The position numbers were made by a program, and so were the translations under genes. Positions 2,263 to 42,440 of a stretch of 64,000 bases of DNA are shown here, one piece after another; position 1 is the stretch's first letter; each line of letters begins with the position of its first letter. The stretch is from Nonomuraea montanisoli. GTDB lineage: Bacteria; Actinomycetota; Actinomycetes; Streptosporangiales; Streptosporangiaceae. The stretch spans positions 248,001 through 312,000 of the forward strand of contig NZ_JABWGN010000001.1 of NCBI RefSeq assembly GCF_013363975.1. Direction: 5' to 3'. The notes under the pieces were generated by a model, which had not been told where the DNA came from, ran no database searches, and worked only from the letters and a program-made list of their open reading frames with translations.

Positions 2263-2446
2263 GACCTTGAGGTTACGTCACTTCACGCCGGGATATTTCC
2301 GCCATGTCCTGCCCAGAATTTTATTCTGTAAGCGACGGCCCCCACCCGCACGCCGCGACACATCGGCAAACTCCCCCCGACCCCCTCCAACGGGACAAAC
2401 GTCACAATGGCGTATCTTTCTCCGCACACCGGGCAGGTACCAGCGC

Positions 2447-3571
2447 ATGAGGAAGATCGTCGCAGGATTCGCCATGACCATCCTGCTGACCGGCTGCGCG
2501 GCGCTCCAGTCCGCCGGCGCCGCCGGTCCCACGACGCCCTCTGGAGGCGCCCCGTCCACTGCCACGGCCACCGCCCCGTCCACCGCCCCGTCCACCGCGA
2601 CGACCAGCCCTCCGGCCGGCGCGGGCGCCCCGCCGTCGCCCCAGGCGCTGGAGTCCGCGTACGAGCAGGTCATCAAGGAGGTCCTGCCGTCGATCGTGCA
2701 GATCACCACCAAGGTGGGCCTCGGCTCCGGGATCGTGTACGACACGGCGGGCCACGTCATCACCAACGCGCACGTGGTCGGCGAGGCCACGCGGATGCAG
2801 GTGACGCTCGCCACCGGCGGGGCCGGCCGCAGCGCCCGGCTGGTCAAGTCGTTCCCGGCCGGCGACCTCGCGGTGATCAAGGTGGACGACCCGAAGGGGC
2901 TGAAGCCGGCCCGGTTCGGCGACTCCGCCAAGCTGCGCGTCGGCCAGCTCGTGCTGGCCATGGGCAACCCGCTCGGCCTGTCGGGCAGCGTGACGGACGG
3001 CATCGTCTCCGCCCTCGGCCGCACGGTCAGCGAGCCGCAGGACCCGGAGTCGCCCGGCGCGACGATCGCCAACGCGATCCAGACCTCGGCCGCCATCAAC
3101 CCCGGCAACAGCGGCGGCGCCCTGGTGGACCTCTCCGGCCAGGTCATCGGCATCCCGACGCTCGCCGCCACGGACCCGAACCTGGGCGGCGGGGCGGCGC
3201 CCGGCATCGGCTTCGCCATCCCCAGCAACACCGCGACGGACATCGCCGGCCAGATCATCCGCCAGGGCAAGGTCACCAACACGCACCGCGCCGCCCTCGG
3301 CGTCCGGGGCAGCACGGTCGTCGGCCAGGACGGGCAGCCCGCCGGGGTCGGGGTGATCAGCGTCGAGTCCGGCAGCGGCGCCCAGAAGGCCGGCATCCGG
3401 CCGGGTGACGTGATCGTCTCGATCAACGACACCGAGACTCCGACCATGGCGGCCCTGTCGGAGACGCTGACCACGCTCAAGCCCGGCGACCAGGTCAAGG
3501 TCGGCCTCGTCCGCTCCGACGGCGGCCAGGCCACCGTCACGGCCACCCTCGGAGAGCTGCCCGGCGACTGA
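2447..3571 (+). CDS. HtrA/DegP-like serine protease lipoprotein with PDZ domain
   Basis: 374 residues from the ATG at 2447. That start was chosen because it gives a proper lipoprotein signal (MRKIVAGFAMTILLTGC), whereas upstream in-frame codons give an implausible N-terminus. After a Ser/Thr/Pro linker comes a trypsin-fold domain with His109 (TNAHVVG), Asp140 (GDLAVIK) and Ser222 (NPGNSGGAL), a complete catalytic triad. One C-terminal PDZ domain (about 285-370, GIRPGDVIVSIND) should bind substrate or partner C-termini. Expected role is envelope protein quality control outside the membrane. It is divergent from the Pro-rich membrane protein gene and convergent with the OmpA-domain gene. The lipid anchor replaces the transmembrane helix seen in many actinobacterial HtrA proteins. 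Confidence 0.9.
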   Translation: MRKIVAGFAMTILLTGCAALQSAGAAGPTTPSGGAPSTATATAPSTAPSTATTSPPAGAGAPPSPQALESAYEQVIKEVLPSIVQITTKVGLGSGIVYDTAGHVITNAHVVGEATRMQVTLATGGAGRSARLVKSFPAGDLAVIKVDDPKGLKPARFGDSAKLRVGQLVLAMGNPLGLSGSVTDGIVSALGRTVSEPQDPESPGATIANAIQTSAAINPGNSGGALVDLSGQVIGIPTLAATDPNLGGGAAPGIGFAIPSNTATDIAGQIIRQGKVTNTHRAALGVRGSTVVGQDGQPAGVGVISVESGSGAQKAGIRPGDVIVSINDTETPTMAALSETLTTLKPGDQVKVGLVRSDGGQATVTATLGELPGD

Positions 3572-15243: not shown

Positions 15244-15322
15244 CACGGTGGTGCCAGCCTTACCGGCAAGAGGCCGGTCCACGGGATCGAGACGGCGCGG
15301 GCCGATCCCTACGGTTGAACGC

Positions 15323-16606
15323 ATGAACAAGCTCTCCCTACTGACGTTCGGCCTGGTCGCGGCGCTGGCCGCGCCGATCCTGGCCACCCCGGCCCACGCC
15401 ACTTCCGCCAAGTCCGACAAGTCCGACAAGGGGGTCGTGGCCGGGCTCGACCGGTACGCCCGCCCACTGAGCGACTTGGACGCGCTGTCCGAGATGACCC
15501 GCGACGCCTCGATCGTGGGTATCGGCGAAGTGACCCACGGGTCAAAGGAGCTGTTCACCGTACGCAATCGGATGTTCCGGCACCTGGTCAGCAACCAGGG
15601 CTTCACCACGATCGCCCTTGAGGCGCCCTGGTCGGCGGGCGTCCGGCTGGACGAGTACATCCGCACCGGAAAGGGCGACCTGCGCACGATCATGCGCGAG
15701 GACTTCCAGCAGGCCTACGGCTTCTGGCAGACCAAGGAGTGGATGGACCTCTACACCTGGATGCGCGAGTACAACCGCACGGCCCGCCACAAGCTGCGGG
15801 TCATGGGCTTCGACATGGGCGACGTCCATCCGGACCAGTACCGGCGAGTGATCGCCTGGGCCGAGAAGAACAAGCCCGCGATCGCGCCCGAGCTGCGCCG
15901 CCGTTACGCCGATCTGCTCGCCCTTCCCGGCGGTACGGCGGAGCGCATGGACGCCCTCGCCGCCCTCCCGGCGGAGCGGCACAAGACCCTGGCCGAGAAC
16001 GCCGAGGCCGCCTACCGCCTGGTGGAGAAGGCTCCTCCGATCGTGGCCCAGGAGGCGCGGGTCATCGCGCAGATGGCCACGCTGTACACCCTGGACGGCC
16101 CCGCCATGCACCGCCACCGCGACAGGTCCATGGCGGAGAACACATGGTGGTGGAACCGGCACACCGGCCTGAAGACGGTGGCGGCGGCCCACAACGGCCA
16201 CATCGGCTACGTCTCGGCCTGGCCGGACATGTACCCGGTCACCCAGGGCGCCCATCTGCGCGCGATGGCCGGCAAGTCCTACGTCGCCATCGGCACCACC
16301 ATCCACAGCGGCCGGTTCCGCGCCATGGATCCGAAGACCGGCAAGATCGGGGTCTTCGACACCGGCGCCCCGGGCACCGGCAGCAGCGAGCACACGCTCG
16401 ACAAGGTCCGCCACCGCGACTATCTCCTGAGCCTGCGCCAGGCCGGCCAGAACCCGGCGGTCCGCACCTGGCTGGACACCGCCCGCCCCACCTACACGAT
16501 CCCGGCCACGTACATGCCCGAGATGTTCACCAAGCCCCTGGCCCTGGGCAAGGCCTACGACTCGCTGATCCACCTCCACCGTGTGAAGGCGGCCGACCCC
16601 CTCTGA
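15323..16606 (+). CDS. Secreted erythromycin esterase-like protein
   Basis: 427 residues from the ATG at 15323, with a signal peptide MNKLSLLTFGLVAALAAPILATPAHA. Family signatures are present in order: IVGIGEVTHGSKELFTVRNRMFRHL (catalytic Glu/His region), TIALEAPWSAGVRLDEYI, MGFDMGD and AHNGHIGYVS (second catalytic His). These are the positions used by EreA/EreB-type and related ChaN-fold hydrolases. Many such proteins in soil actinobacteria do not hydrolyse macrolides, and secretion makes a classic cytosolic EreA role less likely. Monocistronic, followed by a shared bidirectional terminator. Confidence 0.9.
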   Translation: MNKLSLLTFGLVAALAAPILATPAHATSAKSDKSDKGVVAGLDRYARPLSDLDALSEMTRDASIVGIGEVTHGSKELFTVRNRMFRHLVSNQGFTTIALEAPWSAGVRLDEYIRTGKGDLRTIMREDFQQAYGFWQTKEWMDLYTWMREYNRTARHKLRVMGFDMGDVHPDQYRRVIAWAEKNKPAIAPELRRRYADLLALPGGTAERMDALAALPAERHKTLAENAEAAYRLVEKAPPIVAQEARVIAQMATLYTLDGPAMHRHRDRSMAENTWWWNRHTGLKTVAAAHNGHIGYVSAWPDMYPVTQGAHLRAMAGKSYVAIGTTIHSGRFRAMDPKTGKIGVFDTGAPGTGSSEHTLDKVRHRDYLLSLRQAGQNPAVRTWLDTARPTYTIPATYMPEMFTKPLALGKAYDSLIHLHRVKAADPL

Positions 16607-16630
16607 GCCGCGCTCCTGCGCGTACAACGC

Positions 16631-16666
16631 AAAAACGGCGGTGTCCGTGAGGACACCGCCGTTTTT
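16631..16666. terminator. Bidirectional rho-independent terminator shared by esterase gene and ssrA
   Basis: A 16-bp perfect inverted repeat (AAAAACGGCGGTGTCC, loop GTGA, complement ending GTTTTT). It is flanked by A5 and T5, so it functions on both strands. It ends the erythromycin-esterase gene rightward and the tmRNA gene leftward. Confidence 0.9.
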
Positions 16667-16674
16667 GACATGAG

Positions 16675-17055
16675 TGGAGGTGGCGGGAATCGAACCCGCG
16701 TCCTTCAACCCCAAGACAGGGCTTCTCCGGGCGCAGCCTGCTGTGCTTTTCTCAGCCCCGGCGATCTCGCAGGCGAGTCACCGACGGGCTCAGCCACTGT
16801 TTGGTTTCCCGATCACCCCCGTGGCCGGGTTGATCGGTTGAGCCTTCTAGCGATGCCAGATCCCGGGCCGAAGGCGCTCCCGGGCTGACAGTGGTTTCGC
16901 TACTTAGGCAGCGAGGCCCAGGGAGTCCTGGGCTACCACAGTGCGCTTGGAATTGGCACTTGTTGTTTGCGGTCACAGGATTAACGAGGTTATGTCCGCA
17001 GTCCTCGGCCCGCTTCACCTGACTTGCAAGGTCAAAGTCGAAGCCAGTCACCCCC
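16675..17055 (-). ncRNA. ssrA: Transfer-messenger RNA (tmRNA)
   Basis: On the reverse strand the 381-nt RNA begins GGGGGTGACTGGCTTCGAC and ends with a T-arm GGACGCGGGTTCGATTCCCGC and acceptor CACCTCCA. The 5' GGGGGTG pairs with CACCTCC, leaving A as discriminator; the CCA tail is not encoded. A one-piece tmRNA is expected in actinobacteria. The tag frame runs from a GCC resume codon at 16957-16955 to TAA at 16906-16904 and codes ANSKRTVVAQDSLGLAA, ending in the LAA degron. With SmpB, tmRNA rescues stalled ribosomes and marks the nascent chain for ClpP. smpB lies two genes upstream on the same strand. Confidence 0.95.
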
Positions 17056-17471
17056 TGTGCAATTGTCAACACGGTCTCCGCGCTTGCACGCGATGACCGA
17101 GCAACATGAAGATACAACCCACAACGCCTGCGACGCCAACTTGATTCCCGGTGTCCCCCAGGTTCGCCTGTCACCAAGACGGCGAAACCCCCGGGAACGC
17201 GGCTCGAAGCGCACGCTCCCGGGGGCCGACCGGCAGGGTCGAGCCGGTCCGACGGCAGGACTTCCCCCGAGATGAAGTCCTGGTCTCATCGCGACGACTG
17301 GAACCGCAACCCCCCGAGCGGCCCAGTCATTCTGTAAGACGCCGCCGGAGGCCCCGCGGGTTGCTTCCCGGCGTCAGCGTTGCTTCAGGACCTCGCCATG
17401 GAACGGCATGGCCGCACGCGCCCCGCTCCGGGCGCCCCCGTGGAACGCGCCGAACGCCCCGGAACCGAGCC
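17056..17471. other. Intergenic region between tmRNA and the PBP-like gene
   Basis: 416 bp without a credible protein gene. Short open frames here are Arg/Ser/Gly-rich and lack ribosome sites. It should hold the leftward ssrA promoter: GTTGACAAT at about 17059-17067 on the reverse strand could be an extended -10-like element, but no convincing -35 was found. A GC-rich hairpin at 17188-17225 is listed separately. Confidence 0.6.
17188..17225. terminator. Possible terminator after the smpB/PBP-like operon
   Basis: A 9-bp perfect stem CCCCCGGGA / TCCCGGGGG with a 20-base loop, about 250 bp downstream of the PBP-like stop and ahead of ssrA. It is stable but without a T-tract; function is inferred from position only. 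Confidence 0.35.
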
Positions 17472-19346
17472 TCAGCCCTGGTCGCGCAGCGCGCCGAAGA
17501 AGTCGCCCGCGATGGCCGCCGGGTTGTAGTTCTTGGCCAGGACGGCGATCGCCAGGTCGCCCTGCCAGCCCACGAACCAGCGCTGCCGGCTGTCCTCGTC
17601 ACCCGCCGCCGCGGACACCCCGTACACCTGCCCCTTGCCCGCCTGCGCGGGCGAGCCCTTGGCGCCCGCCTGCATCATCGCGGTCAGGGCCGCGCGGACC
17701 TTCGGGTCGAGCGGCACCGGCTGCGGCGCCGGCGCGGGCGCGATCTCGCCCGTGGGGTCGGGCGACTTGGGGTCGGTCACCAGCACGGGCGGCCGCCACG
17801 TGCCGGAGCCGACGGCCGCCGCGACCAGCGCCATCGACAGCGGGCTCACCTGGACGCTCTGGCCCGCGATGGCCCTGGCCTTGTCCGCGTCGCTGCCGAG
17901 CTCGCCGACCGAGCCGCTGAACGACTTGAGCGGGAGCTGCCACGGCTGCCCGAAGCCGAACGCCTTGGCGCTCTGCGCGAGCGCCCCCGCGTCCACCCGG
18001 CGGGCGAGCGAGGCGAGCGCGGTGACGCAGCCCCTGGCGAAGTTCTCGGTGAGGGTCGGCGCCGGCTCGCTCACGCCCGCCGCCTGGCCCACCTCGACGA
18101 ACCGGGCGCCGCCGACCGTGCGCTCCGCCGGGCACGCCAGCCGCAGCTTCGGGCTCACGTTCCCCTTGACGAGGGCGTCGGTGGCGACGATGGAGAACGC
18201 GGTGCCGGCCGGGAACTTGCCGGCCAGGGCGTCCTTCTCCTGGTTCATGCCGCTCGTGGCGACCGCCCGGATCTCGCCCGTCGCCTTGTCGACCGCGACG
18301 AGGGCGCCGCTCTGGCTCTGCTCGACCGCCTGGTCGGCGGCCTGCTGGACGGCGCTGTCGATGGTGGTCTTGACCGACTGGTTCGCGCGGCCGGGCCACT
18401 CCTTGAGCACCGCGACGTCCTTGCCGGTCTTGGCGTCGAGGATGACCACCTTGGTCTGCGTGGAACCGGTCAGGTAGTCCTGGTACGCCTTCTGCAGACC
18501 GCTCTGCCCGATCGAGTCGCCCGCGCGCTGCGGGCCGCCGAGCTTCGCCTCGTCCTCGGCGGTGATCGCGCTGACCTTGCCGACCAGGTCCTTGGGCTCC
18601 TTGGGGGCGAGCGGCTGCGGCTGCTCCTGCACCGTGAGCTGCTCGATCTTGTCGAGCTGGTTCTTCAGCGCCAGGTACCGGGTGCGGCCGAAGTGGGCCA
18701 GCGGCACGAACTGGTGCGGCGGGGACGACCGGATGCGGTTGAGCAGCCGGTCGTGAGGGAACCCGGTGTACTTGGCGAGCTGCTGCACGACCTCCTCGGC
18801 CTGCGCGCCGAGCTGCGAGGGCACCACGCCGGCCACGTACAGCACCTGCGGGCTCTGCAGCGAGTCGCCGTTGCGGTCGTTGATCGGCTGGCGCGGGATC
18901 GCCTCGGGGTCCACGGCGAACCGCTGCCCCTCCTTGAGCTGCGGGTGGATGACCGAGGGCGACCAGCGCACCTTCCACACGCCGTCGACGAGGTGCAGGG
19001 GCAGCACGCCGTCGTAGCCCCAGAGCGGGCTGTTCTCGCCCAGGTCCACCTCGGCCCGGAAGTCGGCCCGCGACTCGTCGCCGTTCAGGCTGACGTTCTT
19101 GATCTTGAAGCGGAAGGAGGCGGCGTCCAGCTCCAGCTTCACGTCGGCCAGCGTCTTGCGGACCGCCGCCTCGTCGCCGTCGGTGCGGCGGGCCGCGAGC
19201 TCGTAGTCGCCCGTCTGCCAGCCCACGAGGAAGTCGCGCAGCGCGTCGTGCGGCGACGACTCGTCGAAGCAGCCGGTCAGAGTCGTGGACGCGACCGCGA
19301 GCGTGGCGAACGCGGACAGCGTACGGCGAAGGCGGGGACGGCTCAT
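17472..19346 (-). CDS. Penicillin-binding-protein-like lipoprotein lacking all catalytic motifs
   Basis: 624 residues, ATG at 19346. The signal ends in TTLTGC (lipoprotein). An NTF2-like MecA_N domain follows (about 30-150, [17 protein letters not shown]), then a PBP dimer-type region and a transpeptidase-fold C-domain. Compared with the intact PBP at 40830-42440 the motifs are changed: SxxK is T382-A-F-S385 (GTAFS instead of GSTFK), SxN is G439-C-V441, and KTG is V574-Y-G576. Surrounding residues still align ([35 protein letters not shown]), so the fold is kept but acylation by penicillin or substrate is not possible. The start overlaps the smpB stop (ATGA). Probably a structural or regulatory pseudoenzyme; the open frame is undamaged. 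Confidence 0.88.
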
Positions 19347-19810
19347 CGGTTGCGGTGGCGCAGTGCCCTGGCCATCTCCCGCTTTGCCTGCTGCTCGGCC
19401 AGCGTCTGCCGCTTGTCCCAGTCCTTCTTGCCGCGCGCCACGCCGATCTCGACCTTGGCCCGGCCGTCCTTGAAGTACAGGGAGAGCGGCACGATCGTCA
19501 GGCCGCCCTCCTTCACCTTGGCGGACAGCTTGGCGATCTCCTTGCGGTGCAGCAGGAGCTTGCGCTTGCGGCGGGCGGCGTGGTTGGTCCACGTGCCCTG
19601 GGTGTACTCGGGGATGTGGACGTTGAGCAGCCACGCTTCGCCGTCGTCGATGGTGGCGTATCCGTCGATGAGCGAGGCGCGTCCCTCGCGCAGGGACTTG
19701 ACCTCGGTGCCCTGCAGCACGAGGCCGGCCTCGTAGGTGTCCTCGACGTGGTAGTCGTGCCGAGCACGCTTGTTCTGGGCGATGACCTTCCGCCCCGTCT
19801 CACGTGGCAT
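19343..19810 (-). CDS. smpB: SsrA-binding protein
   Basis: 155 residues, normal length. It begins [20 protein letters not shown] and contains [31 protein letters not shown] and the lysine-rich [16 protein letters not shown]. Its C-terminal helix [24 protein letters not shown] is the tail that enters the mRNA channel of stalled ribosomes. It binds tmRNA (encoded ~2.3 kb downstream on the same strand) and delivers it to the A site. It lies 23 bp downstream of ftsX and overlaps the PBP-like gene by 4 bp, so the three are probably read as one unit. Confidence 0.97.
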
Positions 19811-19833
19811 GCCTCGACCTTACCGGCGTTCCT

Positions 19834-20745
19834 CTAGACCCTGAGATAGCGGCGGAGCGTCACGAACGACGCCAGGACACAGATCAGCACGCCGATCACC
19901 ATGGTGAGGGTGATGGAAGTCGCCACCTCGTCCCAGCCCAGCGGCGCGCCGATGGCGATGAACTTGGTGATCTCCTCGAACATGAACACCTTGGCCGCGA
20001 TGAGCAGGACCGCGGCGAGCACACCGCCGATCAGGCCGGCGATCATGCCTTCCATCACGAACGGCAGCTGGATGTAGAGGTTCGAGGCGCCGACCAGGCG
20101 CATGATGCCGGTCTCACGGCGGCGGTTGAAGGCCGACAGCCGGACGGTGTTGCCGATCAGCAGCGCGGCGGCGAGCACCAGGATGATGGCGATGGTGATC
20201 GCCGCCCAGCGGAGCGTGTCGAGCATGCTGAAGAACTTGCCGATCAGCTCTCTCTGGTTGATCACCTGAGAGACGCCCGGCAGCACCTCCGCCGCCTTCA
20301 CAATCGGCTCGTAGTTCTCCGGATCGGTCAGCTTGAGCCGGAACGAGGTCGGCATGTCCTTGACCGTCGCGGCGTCGATCAGCGCCTTGTTGGTGGCGAA
20401 GGACTGCTTGAAGTTCTCGTAGGCCTGCTGCTGGTTCTCGTAGATCACCCCACCGGGGGCGACGCCGGGGATCTTCTCGAGTTGGGCCTTCAGGGCGGTG
20501 GTCTCCTCGTCGGTGATGCCCTTGCCCTTGCACCTCTCGGAAGCGGTGCCCTGGTTGCAGAGGAAAACCGAGACCTCGACCTTGTCGTACCAGTAGCTCT
20601 GCATCATCGAGACCTGCGAGTTGATCATCAGGCCGACGCCCAGCATCGCCATGCCGACCGCCACAGTGATCACCACCGCGATCGTCATGGTCAGGTTGCG
20701 ACGGAGGCCGATCCAGACCTCGGAGAAGATGAAATTCGCCCGCAT
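19834..20745 (-). CDS. ftsX: Cell division ABC transporter permease FtsX
   Basis: 303 residues. A first membrane helix (MTIAVVITVAVGMAMLGVGLMI) is followed by a ~130-residue outer loop with two Cys (FLCNQGTASERCKGK). Three C-terminal helices follow (WAAITIAIILVLAAALLI, GMIAGLIGGVLAAVLLIAA, ITLTMVIGVLICVLASFVTL). The cytoplasmic N-terminus FIFSEVWIGLRRNLTM is typical. FtsX with FtsE passes ATP-driven conformational change to peptidoglycan hydrolases such as RipC in mycobacteria (family knowledge). It is 20 bp downstream of ftsE and upstream of smpB. Confidence 0.95.
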   Translation of the reverse strand: MRANFIFSEVWIGLRRNLTMTIAVVITVAVGMAMLGVGLMINSQVSMMQSYWYDKVEVSVFLCNQGTASERCKGKGITDEETTALKAQLEKIPGVAPGGVIYENQQQAYENFKQSFATNKALIDAATVKDMPTSFRLKLTDPENYEPIVKAAEVLPGVSQVINQRELIGKFFSMLDTLRWAAITIAIILVLAAALLIGNTVRLSAFNRRRETGIMRLVGASNLYIQLPFVMEGMIAGLIGGVLAAVLLIAAKVFMFEEITKFIAIGAPLGWDEVATSITLTMVIGVLICVLASFVTLRRYLRV

Positions 20746-20765
20746 GGTTTGCCTGCTGCTCCCTG

Positions 20766-21455
20766 TCAGTACGCCTGGCCGTAGACGCCACGCGACTGGT
20801 CGCGGACGATCTTGCCGTCCTCCAGCTCCACGACACGCTTGCGCATGGAGTCGACGATGGCCGCGTCGTGCGTGGCCATGACGACAGTAGTGCCGGTTCG
20901 GTTGATGCGGTCCAGCACCTTCATGATGCCGATGCTCGTCGCCGGGTCGATGTTGCCCGTCGGCTCGTCGGCCAGCAGGATCATCGGCCGGTTGACGAAC
21001 GCGCGCGCCATGGCGACACGCTGCTGCTCGCCGCCGGACAGCTCGTCGGGCATGCGGTGCGCCTTGCCCTCCAGGCCGACCAGCTCGATGACCTCGGGCA
21101 CCACCTTGCGGATGAAGCGCCGCGGCTTGCCGATGACCTCCAGGGCGAACGCCACGTTCTCGTAGACGTTCTTGTTCGGCAGCAGCCGGAAGTCCTGGAA
21201 GACGCAGCCGATGCGGCGGCGCAGGTGCGGCACCTTGAAGTTGGAGAGGCGAGCCAGGTCCTTGCCGGCGACATGAATGGCGCCGGAGTTGGGCCGCTCC
21301 TCCTTGAGGACCAGTCGCAGGAACGTGGACTTGCCTGATCCCGAAGGACCGACGAGGAACACGAACTCGCCCTTGTCCACGTCAACGGAGACGTGGTCGA
21401 GCGCGGGCCGGTTCTGGTTCGTGTAGACCTTGGTGACATTATCGAAATGGATCAC
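20766..21455 (-). CDS. ftsE: Cell division ATP-binding protein FtsE
   Basis: 229 residues starting at GTG 21455 ([11 protein letters not shown]). Walker A is GPSGSGKST, the signature is [14 protein letters not shown], Walker B is [12 protein letters not shown], and the switch His lies in [11 protein letters not shown]. It is the soluble ATPase of the FtsEX divisome complex. First gene of the ftsE-ftsX-smpB-PBP-like unit. The 203 bp upstream separate it from a divergent zinc-ribbon gene. Confidence 0.96.
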
Positions 21456-21658
21456 GAGAGCATCACGGCATGCCAGTCTAGGGGTCAGGACGGAAGCGAG
21501 GGTGGCACATGCCCACTTCCCGCCGCTCGGCCGTCGGGGACGTCTTTCTTTACCGATGATCGACGTTCCGATTGGCCAGGGGACAGTCTAGGGGGAAGAC
21601 TGGCATGGAACGTCCATAACGGAAACAAAACGATTGTGCGGCTACACTTGGGGCTGAC

Positions 21659-21850
21659 ATGAGTTGCCAACACCTCGTCTGCGCGCAGTGCGCCCACCCG
21701 GTCATCGAGGGTCGCTGCGCGGTCTGCCGCGCCAACCGCGAGCGGATGCACAACCACGGCTTCGCCGGGCTGTCACCCGCTCTCATCGCCGGGCTGCTGC
21801 TCGCGCTGTTGTTCCTGACCCTCGTGCTGAAGCACCTGAGCGGCCTCTAG
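21659..21850 (+). CDS. Small zinc-ribbon membrane protein
   Basis: 63 residues. The N-terminal half holds C8-x2-C11 and C20-x2-C23, a zinc ribbon, with extra Cys3 and His5 (CQHLVCAQCAHPVIEGRCAVC). The C-terminal half is one membrane helix (LIAGLLLALLFLTLVLK). Similar peptides occur next to prfB/ftsE in related actinobacteria, but no function is known to me. CTACACT just upstream could be a -10 element, giving a very short leader. It is convergent with prfB and divergent from ftsE. Confidence 0.75.
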   Translation: MSCQHLVCAQCAHPVIEGRCAVCRANRERMHNHGFAGLSPALIAGLLLALLFLTLVLKHLSGL

Positions 21851-21893
21851 GAGCCCCGGGCGCCCGGCGCCCGGGTCGGCCTTCGGACGGCCC

Positions 21894-23012
21894 CTAGAGG
21901 GCCGCTTCCGACTCCTGCCGGCGCATCCAGCGGATCTCCGACTCGATGAACTGGTCGAGGTCGCCGTCGAGCACGGCCGACGGGTTGCCGGCCTCGGTGC
22001 TCGTGCGCAGGTCCTTCACGATCTGGTACGGGTGCAGCACGTAGTTGCGGATCTGCGTGCCCCACGACGTGGTCGTGGCGCCGCGCAGCTCCGACATCTT
22101 CTCCGCCTCCTCCTGGCGCTTGCGCTCCAGCAGCTTGGCCTGGAGCACGGCCATGGCGGTCGCGCGGTTCTGGAGCTGGGAGCGCTCGTTCTGGCAGGAG
22201 ACCACGATGTTGGTCGGCAGGTGCGTGATGCGGACGGCCGAGTCGGTCGTGTTGACGCCCTGGCCGCCGGGGCCGGAGGAGCGGTAGACGTCGACGCGGA
22301 TCTCGTCCTCGTTGATGTCGATGTGGTCGGTCTGCTCGACCACCGGCACGATGTCCACGCCGGCGAACGACGTCTGGCGGCGGCCCTGGTTGTCGAACGG
22401 GCTGATGCGCACCAGGCGGTGGGTGCCGTGCTCGCCGCGCAGCGTGCCGTACGCGTAGGGGGCCTTGACCGTGAACGTGGCCGACTTGATGCCGGCCTCC
22501 TCGGCGTAGGAGGTCTCGTAGACCTCGGTCGGGTAGCCCTTGCGCTCGGCCCAGCGGAGGTACATGCGCAGCAGCATCTCGGCCCAGTCGGCGGCGTCGA
22601 CGCCACCGGCCTGCGAGTTGATCGTCACCAGCGCCTCGCGGGCGTCGTACTCGCCCGACAGCAGGGTGCGGACCTCCAGCGCGCCGATGTCGGAGCGCAG
22701 CGTGGCGAGCTCCTTGTCGGCCTCGGCCCGCGTGTCGTCGTCGCCCTCCTCGGCGGCCAGCTCGTAGAGCACGCCGAGGTCGTCCAGCCGGCGCGCCAGC
22801 CCGTCGACGCGGTTGAGCTCGCCCTGCAGGTGGGACAGCTTGCTCGTGACCTTCTGCGCCTGGTCGGGGTCGTCCCACAGGTCGGGGGCGGCCACCTGCT
22901 GCTCCAGCTCCTCGATCTGCTTGCGCATCGCGTCGAGGTCGAGCACGTCCTGGATGCTCCGGAGCGTGCCCGCGAGCTCGTTGATCTCTTCTGCCGGATC
23001 GATGACTGCCAC
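21894..23012 (-). CDS. prfB: Peptide chain release factor 2
   Basis: 372 residues from GTG 23012 ([21 protein letters not shown]), the usual actinobacterial start; a longer frame upstream is not family-like. The peptidyl-hydrolysis loop is SGPGGQGVN (GGQ), and [20 protein letters not shown] contains the SPF tripeptide that reads UGA/UAA. There is no in-frame UGA or programmed frameshift as in E. coli prfB, so autoregulation by frameshifting is absent. It sits upstream of ftsEX-smpB on the same strand, separated by the small convergent zinc-ribbon gene. Confidence 0.97.
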
Positions 23013-23059
23013 GTCTCCCAAGGGTACGCGACCCTCACGCGCACGAATAACATGGCGAG

Positions 23060-24103
23060 GTGCGTGCATCCGGTCGGCTCAGGACACTGGCGCTCGCCGC
23101 CGGGCTGCTGGCCGGCGCGACCGCCTGCTCAGGCGGCTCCGCCGCGCCCTCGGCGGCGCCCGTGACGCGCGCCGCCGTCAGCTCGTCGGCGACCGCCACG
23201 CCGGCGCTGCCGCCCCCCGAGGTCACCCGGGCCGAGGCGGGCGAGGTGTTCTCCACGCTGACGGCCACCGACGACGTGCTGCGGGCCGCCGCGCCCAAGC
23301 TGCACGACGGCACCCTGCGCGACGCGCTCGACCTCACCCGCGACGCCGAAGCCCAGCTCACCACGGCCGCCTACCAGTCCACGGGCTACCATCCCCCCCG
23401 CTACGAATGGGGCTCGCCCGTCCTGTACGTGCCCCGCTTCCCCGCCGGCTCGGAGTCGCCGTGGTTCACCGCCCTGGTGGCCCGCGACGGTCATCCGACG
23501 CTGCTGACCTTCGCCAAGGTCAACAAGGACGCCAAGTGGCAGATCAGCGCGGTGACCCGGCTGCTCGACGGGCAGGACCCGCCGCCGGTCCAGCTCGACG
23601 CCGAGGGCTACGCGACGGCGCTCGACCCGGGCGACAAGAGCGTGACCATCAGCCCGCAGTACATGGGGCCGCTGCACGCGACGGCGGCCGAGGCGGGGGC
23701 CACCGGCGTGGCGGCCGGCCTGATCGCGCCCGGCCCCTACACCACCGACCTCGCCGAGGAGATCAACGACGAGCGCAAGGCGGCCAAGGACGCCGGGCTC
23801 AGCTACGACTCGATCTTCAGCGGCAACGACTACCCCGTCTACGCGCTGCGCACCCGCGACGGCGGCGCGCTGATCCAGTACTCCCTGTCGCGCAACACCA
23901 CCACGACGGCGGCGACCAACGTGAAGGACTTCATCCCGGTGCCCGACGACGCCCAGTGGGCGATCGACGAGCCGAAGGTCCGGCGCACGCTCAAACTGAC
24001 CGAGACGCACCAGTACGCCACGGCCGTGCCGCCGGCGTCGGCGCCGGCGGCGGCCCGGGTCATCGCCCACGAGGGCGGCCTCACCCGCGCCTCGGGCGAG
24101 TGA
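23060..24103 (+). CDS. Secreted lipoprotein of unknown function
   Basis: 347 residues from GTG 23060. The signal [19 protein letters not shown] provides a plausible lipobox (ATAC). An Ala/Ser/Pro linker to residue ~55 leads to a folded region with two similar halves: one around [43 protein letters not shown] and one around [27 protein letters not shown]. This suggests an internal NTF2-like or cystatin-like duplication (pattern reading only). It is divergent from prfB across 47 bp. Family not recognised. Confidence 0.78.
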
Positions 24104-24181: not shown

Positions 24182-27100
24182 TCACTCCTCCCCGTGCGGC
24201 AGGTTGCTGGTCGCGACGAGCGTGCGGACGGCGCGCAGCGCGACCGACAGCGTGGCCAGGTCGAAGTTGTCGCTCTCCCAGATCTCCGACAGCGTCTGCC
24301 GGGCACGGCCCACGGCGGCCGAGTTGGCGTCCGTCCAGAGAGCCAGCCGCTCCTCCGGCGACAGGCCCGGCGTGCTGTGCGTCAGCACGTCGCGGGTGAG
24401 CGAGGCGTGCGCGGCGTAGAGGTCGTCGCGCAGCGCCGAGCGGGCCATCGAGTTCCACCGGTTGTCGCGCGGCAGGGAGATGACGCGCTCCCTGAGCCGG
24501 GCGAGCTGGAGCCGGTCGGCCAGGTCGAAGTACACCTCGGCCACCTCGTTGACCGGCCGTCCCGTGAGCGAGGAGATCTCCACCAGGTCGAACGTCGAGT
24601 AGGCGGGCACCATCGCCGCCACCCGCTCGGCCAGGTCCACGGGCACGTCCCGGGCCACGAAGGCGTCGCGGCGCTCCTCGAAGGCGGCCAGGTCCGGGCC
24701 GGCGAGGAGCTTGGGCATGTGCGTGAGCAGGCCGTTGACGCCCTTGACGAAGAACCCGGCCGCGGCGGCGAGGTCGAGCGGCGGGCGGCGGTTGGTGAGC
24801 AGCCAGCGGGTGCCCCGCTCGGCCAGCTTGCGCGCCTCCAGCAACATGGCGATCTGGGTGCTCGTGTCCACGACGTTGTCCAGCGCCTCCACCTGGCGGT
24901 AGAAGCTGGGCAGGTCGAAGACCTCGCGGGCGACGAGGTAGGCGCGCACGATGTCGGGCGTCGAGGCGCCGGTCTCCTCCGCGAGGCGGAACATGAACGT
25001 GGTGCCCATGGAGTTGACCAGCTCGTTCACCACGCAGGTGGTGATGATCTCGCGGCGCAGCGGGTGGGCGTCCATGTACTCGCGGAACCGCTCGCGCAGC
25101 GCCGACGGGAAGTACGACACCAGCCACGAGGCGAGGTACGGGTCGTCGGGCAGGTCGGAGGCGAGCAGCTCGGCGTCCACCACCAGCTTGGTGTAGGCGA
25201 GCAGCACCGAGAACTCCGGCGCGGTGAGCCCGAGCCGCGCCTGGCGGCGCTCGGCCAGCGTCTTGTCCGACGGCAGGAACTCCAGCTCCCGGTTGACCAG
25301 CCCGTCGCGTTCGAGCCGGCGCAGGTAGCGGGCGTGGATGTGGAGCATCTCCACGGCCTGGGAGCGGGCGGCGGCCAGCACCACGTTCTGCGCGTGGTTG
25401 TCGCGCAGGACCAGGTCGGCGACCTCGTCGGTCATCGAGGTGAAGACCTCGTTGCGCTGGGTGTCGGTGAGCCTGCCGTCGCGGACGACCTGGTCGAGCA
25501 GGATCTTGATGTTCACCTCGTGGTCGGAGGTGTCGACGCCCGCGGAGTTGTCGATGAAGTCGGTGTTGACCAGACCGCCGTTGAGCGCGAACTCGATGCG
25601 GGCGAGCTGGGTGAAGCCGAGGTTGCCGCCCTCGCCGATGACCTTGCAGCGCAGCTCGGCGGCGTCGACGCGCAGCGGGTCGTTGGCCTTGTCGCCGACG
25701 TCGGCGTGGGACTCGACGCTCGCCTTGACGTAGGTGCCGATGCCGCCGTTCCACAGCAGGTCGACCGGGGCCTTCAGGATGGCGCTGATCAGGTCGTTGG
25801 GCGCCATGGACGTGACGCCGGCCGGCAGGTCGAGCGCCTCGCGCATCTGCGGGGTGATGGAGACGGACTTGGCGGTGCGCGGGAAGACGCCGCCGCCCGC
25901 CGAGATCAGCTCGGCCGAGTAGTCGGCCCACGAGCTGCGGGGCAGCTCGAACAGGCGCTGCCGCTCGGCGAACGAGGTGGCCGCGTCCGGGTCGGGGTCG
26001 ATGAAGATGTGCCGGTGGTCGAAGGCGGCGACCAGGCGGATGTGCCGCGACAGCAGCATGCCGTTGCCGAACACGTCGCCGGACATGTCGCCGACGCCGG
26101 CCACCGTGAAGTCGGTGGTCTGGACGTCGACGCCGGTGGTGCGGAAGTGGTACTTGACCGACTCCCAGGCGCCGCGGGCGGTGATGCCCATGGCCTTGTG
26201 GTCGTAGCCGATGGAGCCGCCGGAGGCGAAGGCGTCGCCGAGCCAGAAGCCGTAGTCCTTGGCCACGCCGTTGGCGATGTCGGAGAACGTCGCGGTGCCC
26301 TTGTCGGCGGCCACGACCAGGTAGGGGTCGTCGCCGTCGTGCCGGACGACGTCGGCCGGCGGCACGACCTTGCCGTCGACGAGGTTGTCGGTGACGTCGA
26401 GCAGGCCCGAGATGAACGTCCGGTAGCAGGCCACGCCCTCGGCCAGCACCTCCTCGCGGGAGCCGGACGCCGGGGGCCGCTTGACGACGAACCCGCCCTT
26501 GGACCCGGTCGGCACGATGACGGTGTTCTTGACCATCTGCGCCTTGACCAGGCCGAGGATCTCGGTGCGGAAGTCCTCCATGCGGTCGGACCAGCGCAGG
26601 CCGCCTCGGGCCACCTTGCCGAAGCGCAGGTGGACGCCCTCGACCCGCGGCGAGTACACGAAGATCTCGAACTTGGGCCGCGGCAGCGGCAGCACGCTGA
26701 TCGCCTGCGAGTCGAACTTGAGGGAGATGTAGTCCTTGCGGACCCCGTCGACGCTCTGGAAGTAGTTGGTGCGCAGCGTCGCCTCGATCATCTCGAGGTA
26801 CGCCCGCAGGATCCGGTCCTCGTCGAGCGAGGCGACCTCGTCGAGCGCGCCCAGGACCTCCTCCCGCAGGGCGTCGGCCAGGTCGTCGCGCGCGTCCTGC
26901 GGGCGCCGCGGGTCGAGCCGGGCCTCGAAGAGGCTGACCAGCAGCCGCGACAGCCGGACGTTGCCGATCAGCACCCGCTCCATGTAGCGCTCGGAGAAGG
27001 CGCTGCCGGCCTGGCGCAGGTACTTGGCGTAGACCCGCAGGATCTCGACCTGCTCCCAGGTCAGCCCGGCGCGCAGGATCAGCGCGTTGAAGTTGTCGGC

Positions 27101-29110
27101 CTGGACGCGGCCCCGCCACAGCGCGAGCAGGCCGGCCTCGAACAGCCGCTTGACGTCGTCGCCCGTGGCCGCCTCGGAGGCGGTGAAGCGCAGGCCGAAG
27201 TCGTAGATCCAGCAGTTGCGCGTGTCGTCGTCCGCCGTGGCGGCCGGGGCGGCCGAGTCGGGGGCGGCCCTGCGATAGGTGTCGATCTCGTACGGGCGCT
27301 CGTCCACGACCTCGACGCCGAGCCGCTGGATGAGCGGCAGCGCCTTGGACAGCGAGATGGGCTCGCCGACCTTGTAGATCTTCAGCCGGCGCTGGCCCTC
27401 CTCGGCGTCGTCCGGCACGTACAGGTCGATGTCGACGGCGTCGCCGTCGCTCCCGGTCACCAGCCGCTCCAGCCGGCGCACGTCGGCGACGGCCGTCTCG
27501 GGCGTGAAGTCGGCCTTGTAGCCCTCGGGGAACGCCTGCTGGTAGCGCCGGACCAGCCGGGGCGCCTGGTCGTCGGAGACGGTGTCGGTGAGCGCCACCG
27601 CCAGGTCGTCGGCCCAGGAGCGGGTGATCGCGGCCAGCCGCGCCTCCAGCTGCTCGACGTCCACCTCCGGCTGCGGGAGCTGCTTGCCCCGCTCGCCGCG
27701 GATGACCACGTGCAGGCGGGCCAGCGCCGACTCGCCGATCATCGCGCTGTAGTCGAGCGACCTGCCGCCGAGCGCCTTCAGCAGCACCTCCTGCATCTTC
27801 AGCCGCACCTGGGTGGTGTAGCGGTCGCGCGGCAGGTAGATGAGGCAGGAGATGGAGCGGCCGTAGTCGTCGGGGCGCAGGAACAGCTTGACCTGCTTGC
27901 GCTCGCGCAGCCGCAGCACGCCCAGCGCGATCGGCAGGAGCTGCTCGACCGAGGTCTGGAACAGCTCGTCGCGGGGGAAGGTCTCCAGGATCTCGATGAG
28001 GTCCTTGCCGTCGTGGCTGTCGGCGGCGAGCCCGGCCATCTCCAGCACCGCGGCCAGCTTGCGGCGCAGCACGGGGATCCGGGAGATCGACTCGTTGTAG
28101 GCCACGTGGGTGAACAGGCCGAGGAAGCGGCGCTCGCCGATGACCTCGCCCATGGGGGAGAACAGCTTCACCCCGATGTAGTCGAGGTAGGCGGCCCGGT
28201 GGACGGTGGCGCGGGAGTTGGCCTTGGTGATGATGAGCTGCCGCTTCTCGCGCGCCTTGGCGCGCACCTCGGGCGGCAGCACGGAGAAGCTGGCCGAGCC
28301 GATCTTGTCGTCGCGCAGGATGCCGAACGCGGTGCCGGGCAGCGCGCGCAGCGCGTCGCCCTCGTCGGTGCTCTCCAGGCGGTACTCGCGGTAGCCGAGG
28401 AAGGTGAAGTGCCCGTCGGCGAGCCAGCGCAGCAGGTCGATGCTGTCCTCGACCTCGGCCGGCTCCAGCGGCGGCGGGTTCATCGACAGGTCCTCGGCGG
28501 TCTGCTCGGCCAGCGCCCGCATCTTGGAGAAGTCCTCGACCGCGTGCCGGACGTCGGTCAGCACCCGCTGGAGGTCGTCCTCCAGCCGCTTGAGCGCCTC
28601 CGGATCGGCCTGCCGGTCGATCTCGATGTGGATCCAGGACTCGACCATGAGCTGGCCGGTGACGTCCTCCTGGCCGCGCCCGAGCATGCGGCCCGTCATG
28701 TCGCGGCGCACCCGCATCTGGGGGTGGACGAGCAGGCGGATGCCGATGTCGTGCCGGTCGAGCTCCATCGTGACCGAGTCGACGAGGAACGGCATGTCGT
28801 CGGTGACGACCTCCACGACGGAGGCGCCCGGGTCCCAGCCGTGCTCGGCCACCGTGGGGGTGTAGGCCCGGACCGCCGGGCGGCCCTGCGGGCGTACCGC
28901 GGCCAGCCGTCGCTGGGACATCGCGGGACCGTAGACCTCGACGGGACCGCGGTCGAGCAGGTCCTCCGGCGCCACGTGCCGGTAGTAGACCCGCAGCAGG
29001 CCCAGCGCCTCGTCGGGACTCGTGTCGTCGCTCACGGCCGCGTATCGCTGCGCGGCTCGCTGGAGCAACTCGTCCTTGGCCTCGTCGAGCTTGGCCTCGT
29101 CGAGCGGCAT
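24182..29110 (-). CDS. gdh: Large NAD-dependent glutamate dehydrogenase
   Basis: 1642 residues from the ATG at 29110; AAAGGAG lies ten bases upstream, and upstream in-frame starts give non-homologous sequence. The long N-terminal half carries ACT-like regulatory segments ([42 protein letters not shown]). The catalytic core has [27 protein letters not shown] and [14 protein letters not shown] (substrate lysines), [30 protein letters not shown] and [14 protein letters not shown]. This is the 180-kDa class first known from Streptomyces clavuligerus. It interconverts glutamate and 2-oxoglutarate with NAD, mainly catabolic. Mycobacterial homologues are inhibited by GarA (not seen here). Monocistronic. 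Confidence 0.95.
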   Translation of the reverse strand: [1642 protein letters not shown]

Positions 29111-29568
29111 GTCGCTCTCACTCCTTTGTGAGGGTTTGCCATACATGTTCATAGCCAGGCCTCTGGTTCCCCAAAAGGCGGGAAATAGTGCGCGCGCTTC
29201 ATCGCCCACGCACGGGAGGGGCCCGCCGGTCCGCCCGTGCCCGGCGTGGCGCCGGTCGGACGCCTGGCCGCGCCTCGTGGGCGCACGGGCACGCCGGACG
29301 AATCCGGTGCCGCCGGCATGCCGGGGCCGCCGCTGTGGAGCGGCAGGCCACGCTGGGGAAAGACGGTGCTACCAGCATCCCACACCTGGGGCGCACCCGC
29401 CGTACGGCACGGACGCCGAAGTGGGCCGCCGTCCTCGCCGGCCCACCCGTACGGGAGGATGGGCGCAGCCGTGTCGGGCCCCACCGAACACCTCCCCCAG
29501 ATCGCCCGGCCATGGACAGCCGGACGCATGCCTTGCCGTACCGATATCACCCGAAAAGGGCGAAGACG
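29111..29568. other. Intergenic region upstream of glutamate dehydrogenase
   Basis: 458 bp between the dehydrogenase start and the anti-sigma stop. Open frames are proline/arginine/glycine-rich with no ribosome site, so no gene is called. Near the dehydrogenase start TATGAAC and CATGTATGG on the reverse strand are the only AT-rich spots and may include the -10 region (weak). Confidence 0.5.
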
Positions 29569-40743: not shown

Positions 40744-40829
40744 GAGCAGCAACTATAGCCAAACTCATATGCATGGTCGGCTCATATCGGTATTGGACAG
40801 CACCGCGAGGGCTCTGGTCTTCTCACCCC
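40744..40829. promoter_or_regulatory. Divergent LysR/PBP control region
   Basis: 86 bp, the most AT-rich stretch nearby. It holds two CTCATAT direct copies about 17 bp apart (near 40764 and 40781) and the near-palindrome CATATGCATG. ATA-N9-TAT-like spacing compatible with a LysR T-N11-A box occurs around 40756-40770. The assignment rests on position and composition. Confidence 0.35.
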
Positions 40830-42440
40830 ATGGCACCACCAACGGGGACAATCTACGCCCACCTCAGGGAGGACGAGCGGCGTCCGCGCAGAAGGCGCAG
40901 GTGGCGGTGGGTCGCCGCGGCGCTGCTCGTCCCGGCCCTCGCGGCCGGTGGCACGCTCTGGCTCCTGCGCACGGAGGGCACGCCCGAGCAGACCGCCGAC
41001 GACTACCTGGACGCGTGGACGGACCAGAGCTACGCCGAGATGCGCGAGCTCGTCGCCGACCCGCCCGCCGACTTCGAGCAGTGGCACCGGCGCTTCCTCA
41101 CCGACCTCCAGGCCGAGCACATCTCCTTGCGGCGCCCCCTACCGAACGGGGTCTTCGCGAGCACCGTGGGGGACGACGGCGCCGTGACCTTCCACGCCGT
41201 CGTCCAGGGCAGGAGGGACTGGGACTACGACGGCGAGCTCAAGCTCGTCGAGCGCGGCGGCAGGTGGAAGGTCGCCTGGACCCCGGCCACCATCCACCGC
41301 CTGCTCAAGAAGGGCAGGTCGCTGCGGGCGATCACCCGGCCGGGCGAGCCCGCGCACGTCCTGGCCGCCGGCGGCGAACGCATCGACACCCCGGACACGC
41401 CCGGCTCGGTGCAGCAGCTCGTCGAGGGCCTCAAGCGGACGTACCCGGACTGGTTCGCCCCCTACAAGGAGACCACGATCGAGCTGTACGAGGGCGACAG
41501 ACCGGTCGAGACGCTCGTCGGGGCCGGCGGCAAGGTGCCGCTGAAGACCACGATCGACCTCAAGGTGCACCGGGCGGGGGCCGCCGCACTGGAGGGCGTG
41601 GACAAGCCCGCCTCGCTGGTGGCGCTGCGGCCCTCCACCGGCGAGATCCTCGCCGTGGTCAACAAGCCGGGCGGCTTCAACCGGGCGCTGCTCGGCAAGT
41701 ACCCGCCCGGTTCCACGTTCAAGGTCGTCACCGCCTCGGCGCTGGTCGCGGACGGCGCGAAGCCGGACGCGCGGGTGACCTGCCCCGCCGAGCAGAACAT
41801 CGGCGGCTTCCCCTTCCACAACGCCGGTTTCAAGGACTACGGCACGCTGGCCTTCCGCGACGCCTTCGCCCACTCCTGCAACACCACGTTCGGCGCGATG
41901 AGCGTGGACCGGCTCGGCGCCGACCGGCTCGCCAAGGTGGCCGCCAGCTTCGGCTTCGGCGCGGCGATCACGCCGGGCGTGCCGGCCGTGAAGGCGGAGT
42001 TCCCGGCGCCGAAGGACGACACGGACCTCGCCTCCGCCTCCATCGGGCAGGGCAGGGTGCTGGCCAGCCCACTGAACATGGCCTCCGTGGCGGCGGCCAT
42101 CGCCGCCGGCGCTTGGTGGCCGCCCCGGCTGGTGCCGGAGGAGCGGATGCCGGACCACACGCTCCGGCCGCGCCGCCTGGAGGACGACGTGGTGCGGGCG
42201 CTGCGCGACCTCATGCCGGCCGTCGTCACCGACGGCACGGCCCAGGCCGTCAGCTTCCCGGAGGGCACGGCGGGCAAGACCGGCACGGCGGAGTACGGGT
42301 CGGGCAAGGAGCCGCCCGCGCACTCGTGGTTCGTCGGCTACCGGGGCGACCTGGCGTTCGCGGTGATCGTGGAGGGCGGCGGGGCCGGCTCGGCCGTGGC
42401 GGCCCCGGTCGCGGCCCGCTTCCTCAAGGCGCTCGCCTGA
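40830..42440 (+). CDS. Penicillin-binding protein, MecA_N-type transpeptidase
   Basis: 536 residues from the ATG at 40830. A basic N-terminus and one membrane anchor (WRWVAAALLVPALAAGGTLWLL) precede an NTF2-like MecA_N domain (about 45-160, DYLDAWTDQSYAEMRELV). The transpeptidase domain has all three motifs: S295-T-F-K298, S349-C-N351 and K483-T-G485. It should cross-link peptidoglycan as a class B PBP outside the membrane. It is the intact paralogue of the motif-less lipoprotein at 17472-19346. Similar MecA_N PBPs can confer lower beta-lactam affinity (family knowledge). The divergent LysR gene may regulate it. Confidence 0.93.
   Translation: MAPPTGTIYAHLREDERRPRRRRRWRWVAAALLVPALAAGGTLWLLRTEGTPEQTADDYLDAWTDQSYAEMRELVADPPADFEQWHRRFLTDLQAEHISLRRPLPNGVFASTVGDDGAVTFHAVVQGRRDWDYDGELKLVERGGRWKVAWTPATIHRLLKKGRSLRAITRPGEPAHVLAAGGERIDTPDTPGSVQQLVEGLKRTYPDWFAPYKETTIELYEGDRPVETLVGAGGKVPLKTTIDLKVHRAGAAALEGVDKPASLVALRPSTGEILAVVNKPGGFNRALLGKYPPGSTFKVVTASALVADGAKPDARVTCPAEQNIGGFPFHNAGFKDYGTLAFRDAFAHSCNTTFGAMSVDRLGADRLAKVAASFGFGAAITPGVPAVKAEFPAPKDDTDLASASIGQGRVLASPLNMASVAAAIAAGAWWPPRLVPEERMPDHTLRPRRLEDDVVRALRDLMPAVVTDGTAQAVSFPEGTAGKTGTAEYGSGKEPPAHSWFVGYRGDLAFAVIVEGGGAGSAVAAPVAARFLKALA

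Follow-up and report, generated by a model that had tools for sequence, protein, structure and literature searches.

Results

A penicillin-binding protein gene behind smpB

The DNA analysed here, referred to as the window, is a 64,000-nt stretch of Nonomuraea montanisoli (GCF_013363975.1, NZ_JABWGN010000001.1, positions 248,001 to 312,000), and coordinates are given within it. A gene for a penicillin-binding protein (PBP), which we call the pseudo-PBP, lies on its minus strand in the following setting.

21894..23069, minus strand: prfB (NCBIfam prfB, over cut-off)
20766..21455, minus strand: ftsE (NCBIfam FtsE, over cut-off)
19834..20745, minus strand: ftsX, 23 nt upstream of smpB (NCBIfam FtsX_actino, over cut-off)
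19343..19810, minus strand: smpB (over the NCBIfam cut-offs of PRK05422 and TIGR00086); its stop and the pseudo-PBP start share ATGA
17472..19346, minus strand: pseudo-PBP gene, 624 aa, beginning with an ATG that overlaps the smpB stop by 4 nt (translation, Pfam, homologues)
16672..17055, minus strand: ssrA (tmRNA), 416 nt downstream of the pseudo-PBP stop (Rfam RF00023; ARAGORN gives 16674-17055)

A preliminary description of this DNA had reported, giving no strand, an intact 624-residue lipoprotein frame with a start overlapping the smpB stop (by four bases, as we find), ftsEX in the same unit and ssrA nearby. All of this was reproduced, with ftsX, ftsE and also prfB upstream on the same strand and ssrA downstream. 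The protein itself is organised as follows.

19269..19346, minus strand: signal peptide with lipobox (LTGC, Cys26; from the sequence, and by regular expression in relatives)
18924..19256, minus strand: MecA_N (NTF2-like), residues 31-141 (Pfam), with raised constraint in the pseudoenzyme clade (entropy, pairwise identity)
18429..18896, minus strand: PBP_dimer, residues 151-306 (Pfam)
17559..18308, minus strand: Transpeptidase, residues 347-596, catalytically degenerate (Pfam, AlphaFold2 model)

All three domains scored above their Pfam gathering thresholds. PBP_dimer (PF03717, 43.6 bits) and Transpeptidase (PF00905, 53.4 bits) stand in class B PBP order, and MecA_N (PF05223, 36.3 bits against a cut-off of 22) is placed before PBP_dimer, an arrangement shared with the class B PBPs PBP2a/MecA and PBP5fm. 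Membership of the MECA_PBP2A family was not indicated by NCBIfam NF000237 (52.9 bits against a cut-off of 750). The AlphaFold2 model (mean pLDDT 90.4, pTM 0.85) predicts an intact fold. The best Foldseek match is PBP2a (4bl2_A, E 1.6e-32), and the best sequence matches are Bacillus subtilis PBP3 (7bn9_A) and Enterococcus faecium PBP5. A lipobox was found by regular expression in 68 of 70 loci of the order, and the pseudo-PBP is probably a lipid-anchored, secreted class B PBP of the MecA_N type. One relative (L063, genome G096) has FAFFIDYAEAS in place of the lipobox and no cysteine there, and a helix may anchor this protein instead.

All three catalytic motifs are lost

The window protein was aligned with 120 listed relatives of the intact gene, taken from 4000 homologues found for an intact relative; S..K, S.N and K[T/S]G are intact in every one of them. 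The corresponding sites in the pseudo-PBP are as follows.

18192..18203, minus strand: lost SxxK, now T382-A-F-S385 (alignment with the 120 intact relatives)
18024..18032, minus strand: lost SxN, now G439-C-V441, with Cys440 kept (same alignment)
17610..17618, minus strand: lost KTG, now V577-S578-A579 (same alignment; predicted strand 575-581)

The preliminary description was right that all three motifs are replaced, and right about the sites of SxxK and SxN, but its KTG site (V574-Y-G576) lies three residues off: V-Y-G-K-T-G of the intact relative L085 aligns with V-Y-G-V-S-A of the window protein, and the intact relatives place K-T/S-G at 577-579. Judged from these alignments, loss of the canonical transpeptidase mechanism is near certain. 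The protein thus has the domain order of class B PBPs but not their SxxK, SxN and K[T/S]G. Unlike PBP2a and PBP5fm, it lacks all three motifs, is a predicted lipoprotein, and has a MecA_N domain more conserved than its transpeptidase domain.

The loss extends over two families

A search of the order gave a match in 200 of 200 genomes, and motifs were read in 100 of these, comprising 96 from the GTDB family of the window (f1), one from a second family (f2) and three from a third (f3); four repeat genomes were dropped and one was left out (G012, whose contig ends inside the gene). The preliminary description had turned on whether the changed positions are conserved among homologues, and across the 97 genomes of f1 and f2 this holds, with no catalytic lysine anywhere (Lys385 in 0/97, Lys577 in 0/97). 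Asn441 occurs once in 97 (L264). Position 385 carries S, G, T or Q, position 577 V, Q, I, L or A, and position 382 T, E, G, L, M, S or others; on this comparison, the former catalytic sites have drifted after the loss. All three f3 genomes (G002, G004 and G006) have an intact full-length copy at the same place.

Two overlapping samples gave the same picture. Among the 264 homologues found for the window protein, the 120 listed, mostly from Nonomuraea, all have Ser at the lysine position; one of them (P0110) lacks the KTG region. The lysine is likewise absent from all 80 named loci, which cover Nonomuraea, Microtetraspora, Sphaerisporangium, Streptosporangium, Planobispora, Actinomadura, Nocardiopsis and others, and many of whose genomes are also in the 97-genome set. 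Of the rows behind these counts, L094 spans SxxK only and L271 the C-terminal part only, and L014 was dropped as a duplicate of L015.

Gene neighbourhood

The order ftsX, smpB, PBP on one strand was found in 70/70 loci of the order, with ftsE ahead wherever the stretch reached it, and ARAGORN called a tmRNA in 67 of them. The 4-nt overlap with smpB recurs in 22/70 and the start lies at most 61 nt from smpB in 69/70, where the start taken was the lipobox start nearest the smpB stop, a choice biased to short gaps. Coupling to smpB across genera, a further point raised in the preliminary description, was seen in 79 of the 80 named loci, where a co-oriented smpB precedes the PBP; the gap between the two genes is longer in L062 and L214. 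The exception is L157 (Nonomuraea sp. MG754425): this PBP homologue (57%) lacks the motifs, and neither smpB nor ftsX was seen in the flanks retrieved. Under that strain name there is also a record with a 70% homologue (P0026), and L157 is either a second copy or contamination.

A specific functional link to trans-translation was considered and rejected, because intact PBPs also follow smpB, and smpB and ssrA lie close together with no PBP intervening after smpB in L125, L126, L130, L132 and L133. Beyond intact PBPs, ssrA is found at about 1.0 kb in G281 and 2.8 kb in G205; the stretches around the intact loci of G002 and G004 gave no ssrA call. Proximity to ssrA looks like inherited gene order. 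Also set aside was the idea that the pseudo-PBP stands in for a missing FtsEX-dependent hydrolase: it occurs both with and without a gap between ftsX and smpB, in no pattern, and the gene filling such a gap was read in one locus only (L055, ~40% group, 2302-3534), where it encodes a PDZ-S41 peptidase. Nonomuraea loci have no such gap.

Within the window, an inverted repeat at 17188-17225 (12-nt arms, 92% complementary, 14-nt loop) lies between the pseudo-PBP stop and ssrA and possibly separates their transcripts; no sigma-70-like site was found in 16600-21900. Convergent with ssrA is an erythromycin-esterase-family gene (15248-16606, plus strand; PF05139, 226 bits), which scores far under the EreA, EreB and EreD cut-offs. 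A large NAD-glutamate dehydrogenase with Bac_GDH domains (24182-29209, minus strand, 1675 aa) is encoded near the prfB-ftsEX-smpB unit. Elsewhere, contig C267 of G109 gave two extra smpB-like matches (52% identity, equal scores) besides the PBP-adjacent smpB.

A probable single loss from an active smpB-adjacent PBP

In a 60-row tree built after removal of the motif columns, the 44 motif-less rows form one side of one branch (SH-aLRT 99), which fits a single loss. The tree is of a quick type without bootstraps; it leaves 16 inner branches open, nine of its rows are atypical in composition, and 18 Nonomuraea rows were thinned beforehand. An intact PBP is also found beside smpB outside the order (G205 and G281). 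Within 'Streptosporangiales bacterium' MAGs, an intact PBP (L086 of f3, identical to P0125) occupies the same place with the same three domains at 35% identity and, unlike the window protein, retains SxxK, SxN and KTG. The simplest history suggested by these sequences is that an active PBP at the smpB locus lost its catalytic function a single time, in the lineage ancestral to f1 and f2. The main proposal of the preliminary description, a natural PBP pseudoenzyme that is intact, conserved and coupled to smpB, is borne out in 97 genomes of two families and 80 named loci, with what looks like one old loss.

Purifying selection and a shift of constraint

For 24 non-overlapping close pairs, the median dN/dS (Nei-Gojobori, own script) was 0.254 for the pseudo-PBP, compared with 0.125 for smpB and 0.285 for ftsX. 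Judging by this ratio, the gene is under purifying selection and therefore kept for some function. The reading frame is open in 70/70 loci of the order, and the sole broken copy (G062) is interrupted near a split of the gene over two contigs.

The distribution of constraint along the protein differs from that of active relatives. Among pairs matched for overall identity (0.40-0.60; L157 and L187 excluded), MecA_N is the more similar of the two domains, MecA_N and transpeptidase, in 1272 of 1330 pseudoenzyme pairs and in 0 of 5759 pairs of active relatives; the pairs are non-independent, and sampling is unequal between the two groups (effective 59 vs 30 sequences). The active small paralogues of the order behave like the active relatives, with MecA_N ahead in 0/91 pairs drawn from 14 rows of which two (L106 and L222) are one gene. 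Counting sites conserved at ≥90%, with L157 and L187 again left out, MecA_N rises from 11 in the active group to 27 of 111 in the pseudoenzymes and the transpeptidase domain falls from 82 to 42 of 278, while PBP_dimer has 24/156 in both groups and similar entropy (1.72 in the pseudoenzymes vs 1.69). Of 14 residues newly fixed in the pseudoenzyme, seven are in MecA_N, one in the linker after it, five in PBP_dimer and one in Transpeptidase. From these comparisons, constraint is inverted, being strongest at the N-terminal domain of the pseudoenzyme, and the contrast with active relatives is near total.

In close pairs, pN/pS was 0.268 for MecA_N, 0.253 for PBP_dimer and 0.371 for Transpeptidase, with MecA_N slower than Transpeptidase in 21 of 24 pseudoenzyme pairs; since PBP_dimer evolves as slowly as MecA_N, the close pairs do not single out MecA_N. 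Two cysteines, C405 and C440, stay conserved among active proteins and pseudoenzymes, in keeping with a secreted, folded domain.

A small active paralogue

The window's genome contains 14 Transpeptidase-domain matches. An intact paralogue lies in the window itself.

40773..42440, plus strand: intact small MecA_N-Transpeptidase paralogue (Pfam, read from 40830), with STFK, SCN and KTG

Read from 40830 it has 536 aa and no PBP_dimer match, and because of this its similarity to the pseudo-PBP is confined to two blocks (residues 29-141 and 283-605, 33% identity each by BLASTP); the full-length alignment claimed in the preliminary description did not hold. Small MecA_N-transpeptidases were found in 192 of 196 f1 genomes (pseudoenzyme motifs were read in 96) and in the one f2 genome, counting best E-values ≤1e-100, a level reached by no full-length gene; the ten weakest genomes were judged by their rows, and G199 was counted from one piece. 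All 17 rows that were read, repeats included, have intact motifs. No separate small copy was found in the three f3 genomes with an intact full-length gene (of which G006 is 77% complete), and, of the 12 genomes outside the order with a motif-checked intact full-length gene, the 11 that were searched had no small-type match among the matches listed. This distribution would fit a hand-over of catalysis, as a single evolutionary contrast within the order. Four f1 genomes (G096, G109, G115 and G145) have no small paralogue, so a take-over of catalysis by this enzyme is not universal.

Discussion

A probable role without catalysis

We favour, with somewhat better than even confidence, a history in which an active PBP at the smpB locus lost catalysis once and became a non-catalytic envelope adaptor or regulator of peptidoglycan synthesis. 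Comparison of the sequences documents the motif loss, the retention of the gene, the purifying selection and the one-loss tree, and from there we infer the adaptor or regulator role. At the membrane, the NTF2-like N-terminal domain, with the neighbouring part of PBP_dimer, would bind either nascent peptidoglycan or a partner and may in this way steer septal or apical wall synthesis. Transpeptidation would be left to other PBPs, including the small MecA_N-transpeptidases of nearly all these genomes. We take the N-terminal domain as the putative working end because constraint has shifted towards it. A role in division is suggested only by co-location with ftsX and ftsE and by the septal mycobacterial lipoprotein PBP-lipo, and the ftsE/ftsX neighbourhood does not prove it, since ftsX and smpB are also close in actinobacteria whose smpB is not followed by a PBP. 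The usual contact of class B PBPs with SEDS polymerases is made by a transmembrane helix, and it speaks against the adaptor role that the pseudo-PBP, a predicted lipoprotein, has none.

BlaR1/MecR1-type acylated β-lactam sensors use an acylatable serine-lysine pair, which is absent here, as Ser382 and Lys385 are both replaced. The acylated type of sensor, entertained in the preliminary description, is therefore less likely, while non-covalent muropeptide binding is possible; the 'scaffold' or 'divisome regulator' role also put forward there would fit the data. A sensor could work non-covalently if the dead cleft or the N-terminal domain bound muropeptides, lipid II stems or β-lactams without turnover and so signalled the state of the wall. 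The best Foldseek match, PBP2a, is represented by structures with allosteric-site ligands (3zfz and 3zg5, from PDB titles), and the increased constraint on MecA_N would suit such binding, but the old cleft drifts, as at the variable residue 382, and the prfB-ftsE-ftsX-smpB-PBP unit of the window contains no sensor kinase or transcription factor, and we think this explanation unlikely. The PBP_dimer domain might instead activate FtsW or RodA, or tether FtsX or its effector, independently of catalysis. The unvarying co-oriented order of ftsX, smpB and PBP argues for such a scaffold, as do the slow evolution of PBP_dimer in close pairs, the conservation of its G256, D277, G280, G283 and G294 in active and pseudo groups alike, and the support of division without catalysis by a B. 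subtilis class B PBP (accessible part of PMC5656894). The missing transmembrane helix weighs against it, PBP_dimer is no more conserved than in active relatives, and the link to ftsX may be gene order only; on balance we think it unlikely.

A related possibility is a split transpeptidase: catalysis would have passed from the full-length ancestor to the small MecA_N-transpeptidase, in which PBP_dimer is mostly missing, and the ancestral protein would have stayed as the non-catalytic subunit of that enzyme in trans, contributing at the membrane a PBP_dimer head and a binding domain of NTF2-like type. The distribution of the small enzyme in f1 and f3 agrees with this, and the four f1 genomes lacking it do not; we judge it quite unlikely, and if true it would be a class B PBP with naturally separated catalytic and regulatory halves. 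A covert enzyme, in which Thr382, Ser385 or another residue is the nucleophile of an altered chemistry, gains some credit from loci at least 52% identical to the window protein, where Ser is constant at 385 and Thr or Ser predominates at 382. The ~40% group (Actinomadura, Nocardiopsis and others), however, has M, L, D, E, G, P, F or S at 382 and G, T, S or Q at 385, and no conserved substitute for Lys385 and Lys577 exists across the clade, which makes hidden catalysis very unlikely. Scarcely credible is a gene in decay that persists by accident or through its coupling to smpB: the lost motifs and the broken G062 frame would agree with decay, but the low dN/dS and a pN/pS below 0.4 in every domain refute it as the main reading, the frame is otherwise open and the gene is kept behind smpB. 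A pseudogene or assembly error was rejected for the same low rates and the confinement of breakage to a gene split over two contigs.

Relation to known proteins

The favoured adaptor or regulator role can be set beside PBP-lipo (MAB_3167c, Rv2864c), a predicted penicillin-binding lipoprotein that is septal in Mycobacterium abscessus, according to the accessible part of PMC9170245. Like the pseudo-PBP with its LTGC lipobox, it is a predicted actinobacterial lipoprotein; it differs in having a required catalytic serine, S364, which the pseudo-PBP lacks, and an S364A variant gave no growth rescue in M. abscessus (same part of PMC9170245). A non-catalytic role is therefore no default for such lipoproteins. 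Roles kept without acylation are described in the accessible parts of two papers, for B. subtilis PBP 2B (S309A; PMC5656894) and Clostridioides difficile SpoVD (S311A; PMC12713402). Those are engineered laboratory point mutants, whereas the pseudo-PBP lost all three motifs in nature and the gene was kept. We found no description of a motif-less smpB-adjacent PBP family in the open-licence literature, including the accessible parts of the reviews PMC6273383 and PMC9146315.

The pseudo-PBP answers to the definition of a pseudoenzyme, in that catalytic residues are lost and the (predicted) fold and the gene are kept by selection. Natural loss of activity in enzyme families is known. Which duties of class B PBPs need no transpeptidation has so far been approached with engineered mutants, and here a natural experiment runs across many genera of soil actinobacteria, with three motifs gone, the protein kept and constraint moved toward the N-terminal domain. 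That shift to the front end of a retained protein suggests, at the level of sequence, a new non-enzymatic job in cell-wall building. Databases name these proteins 'penicillin-binding transpeptidase domain-containing protein', and an annotation-based count of active PBPs will therefore be too high in these antibiotic producers.
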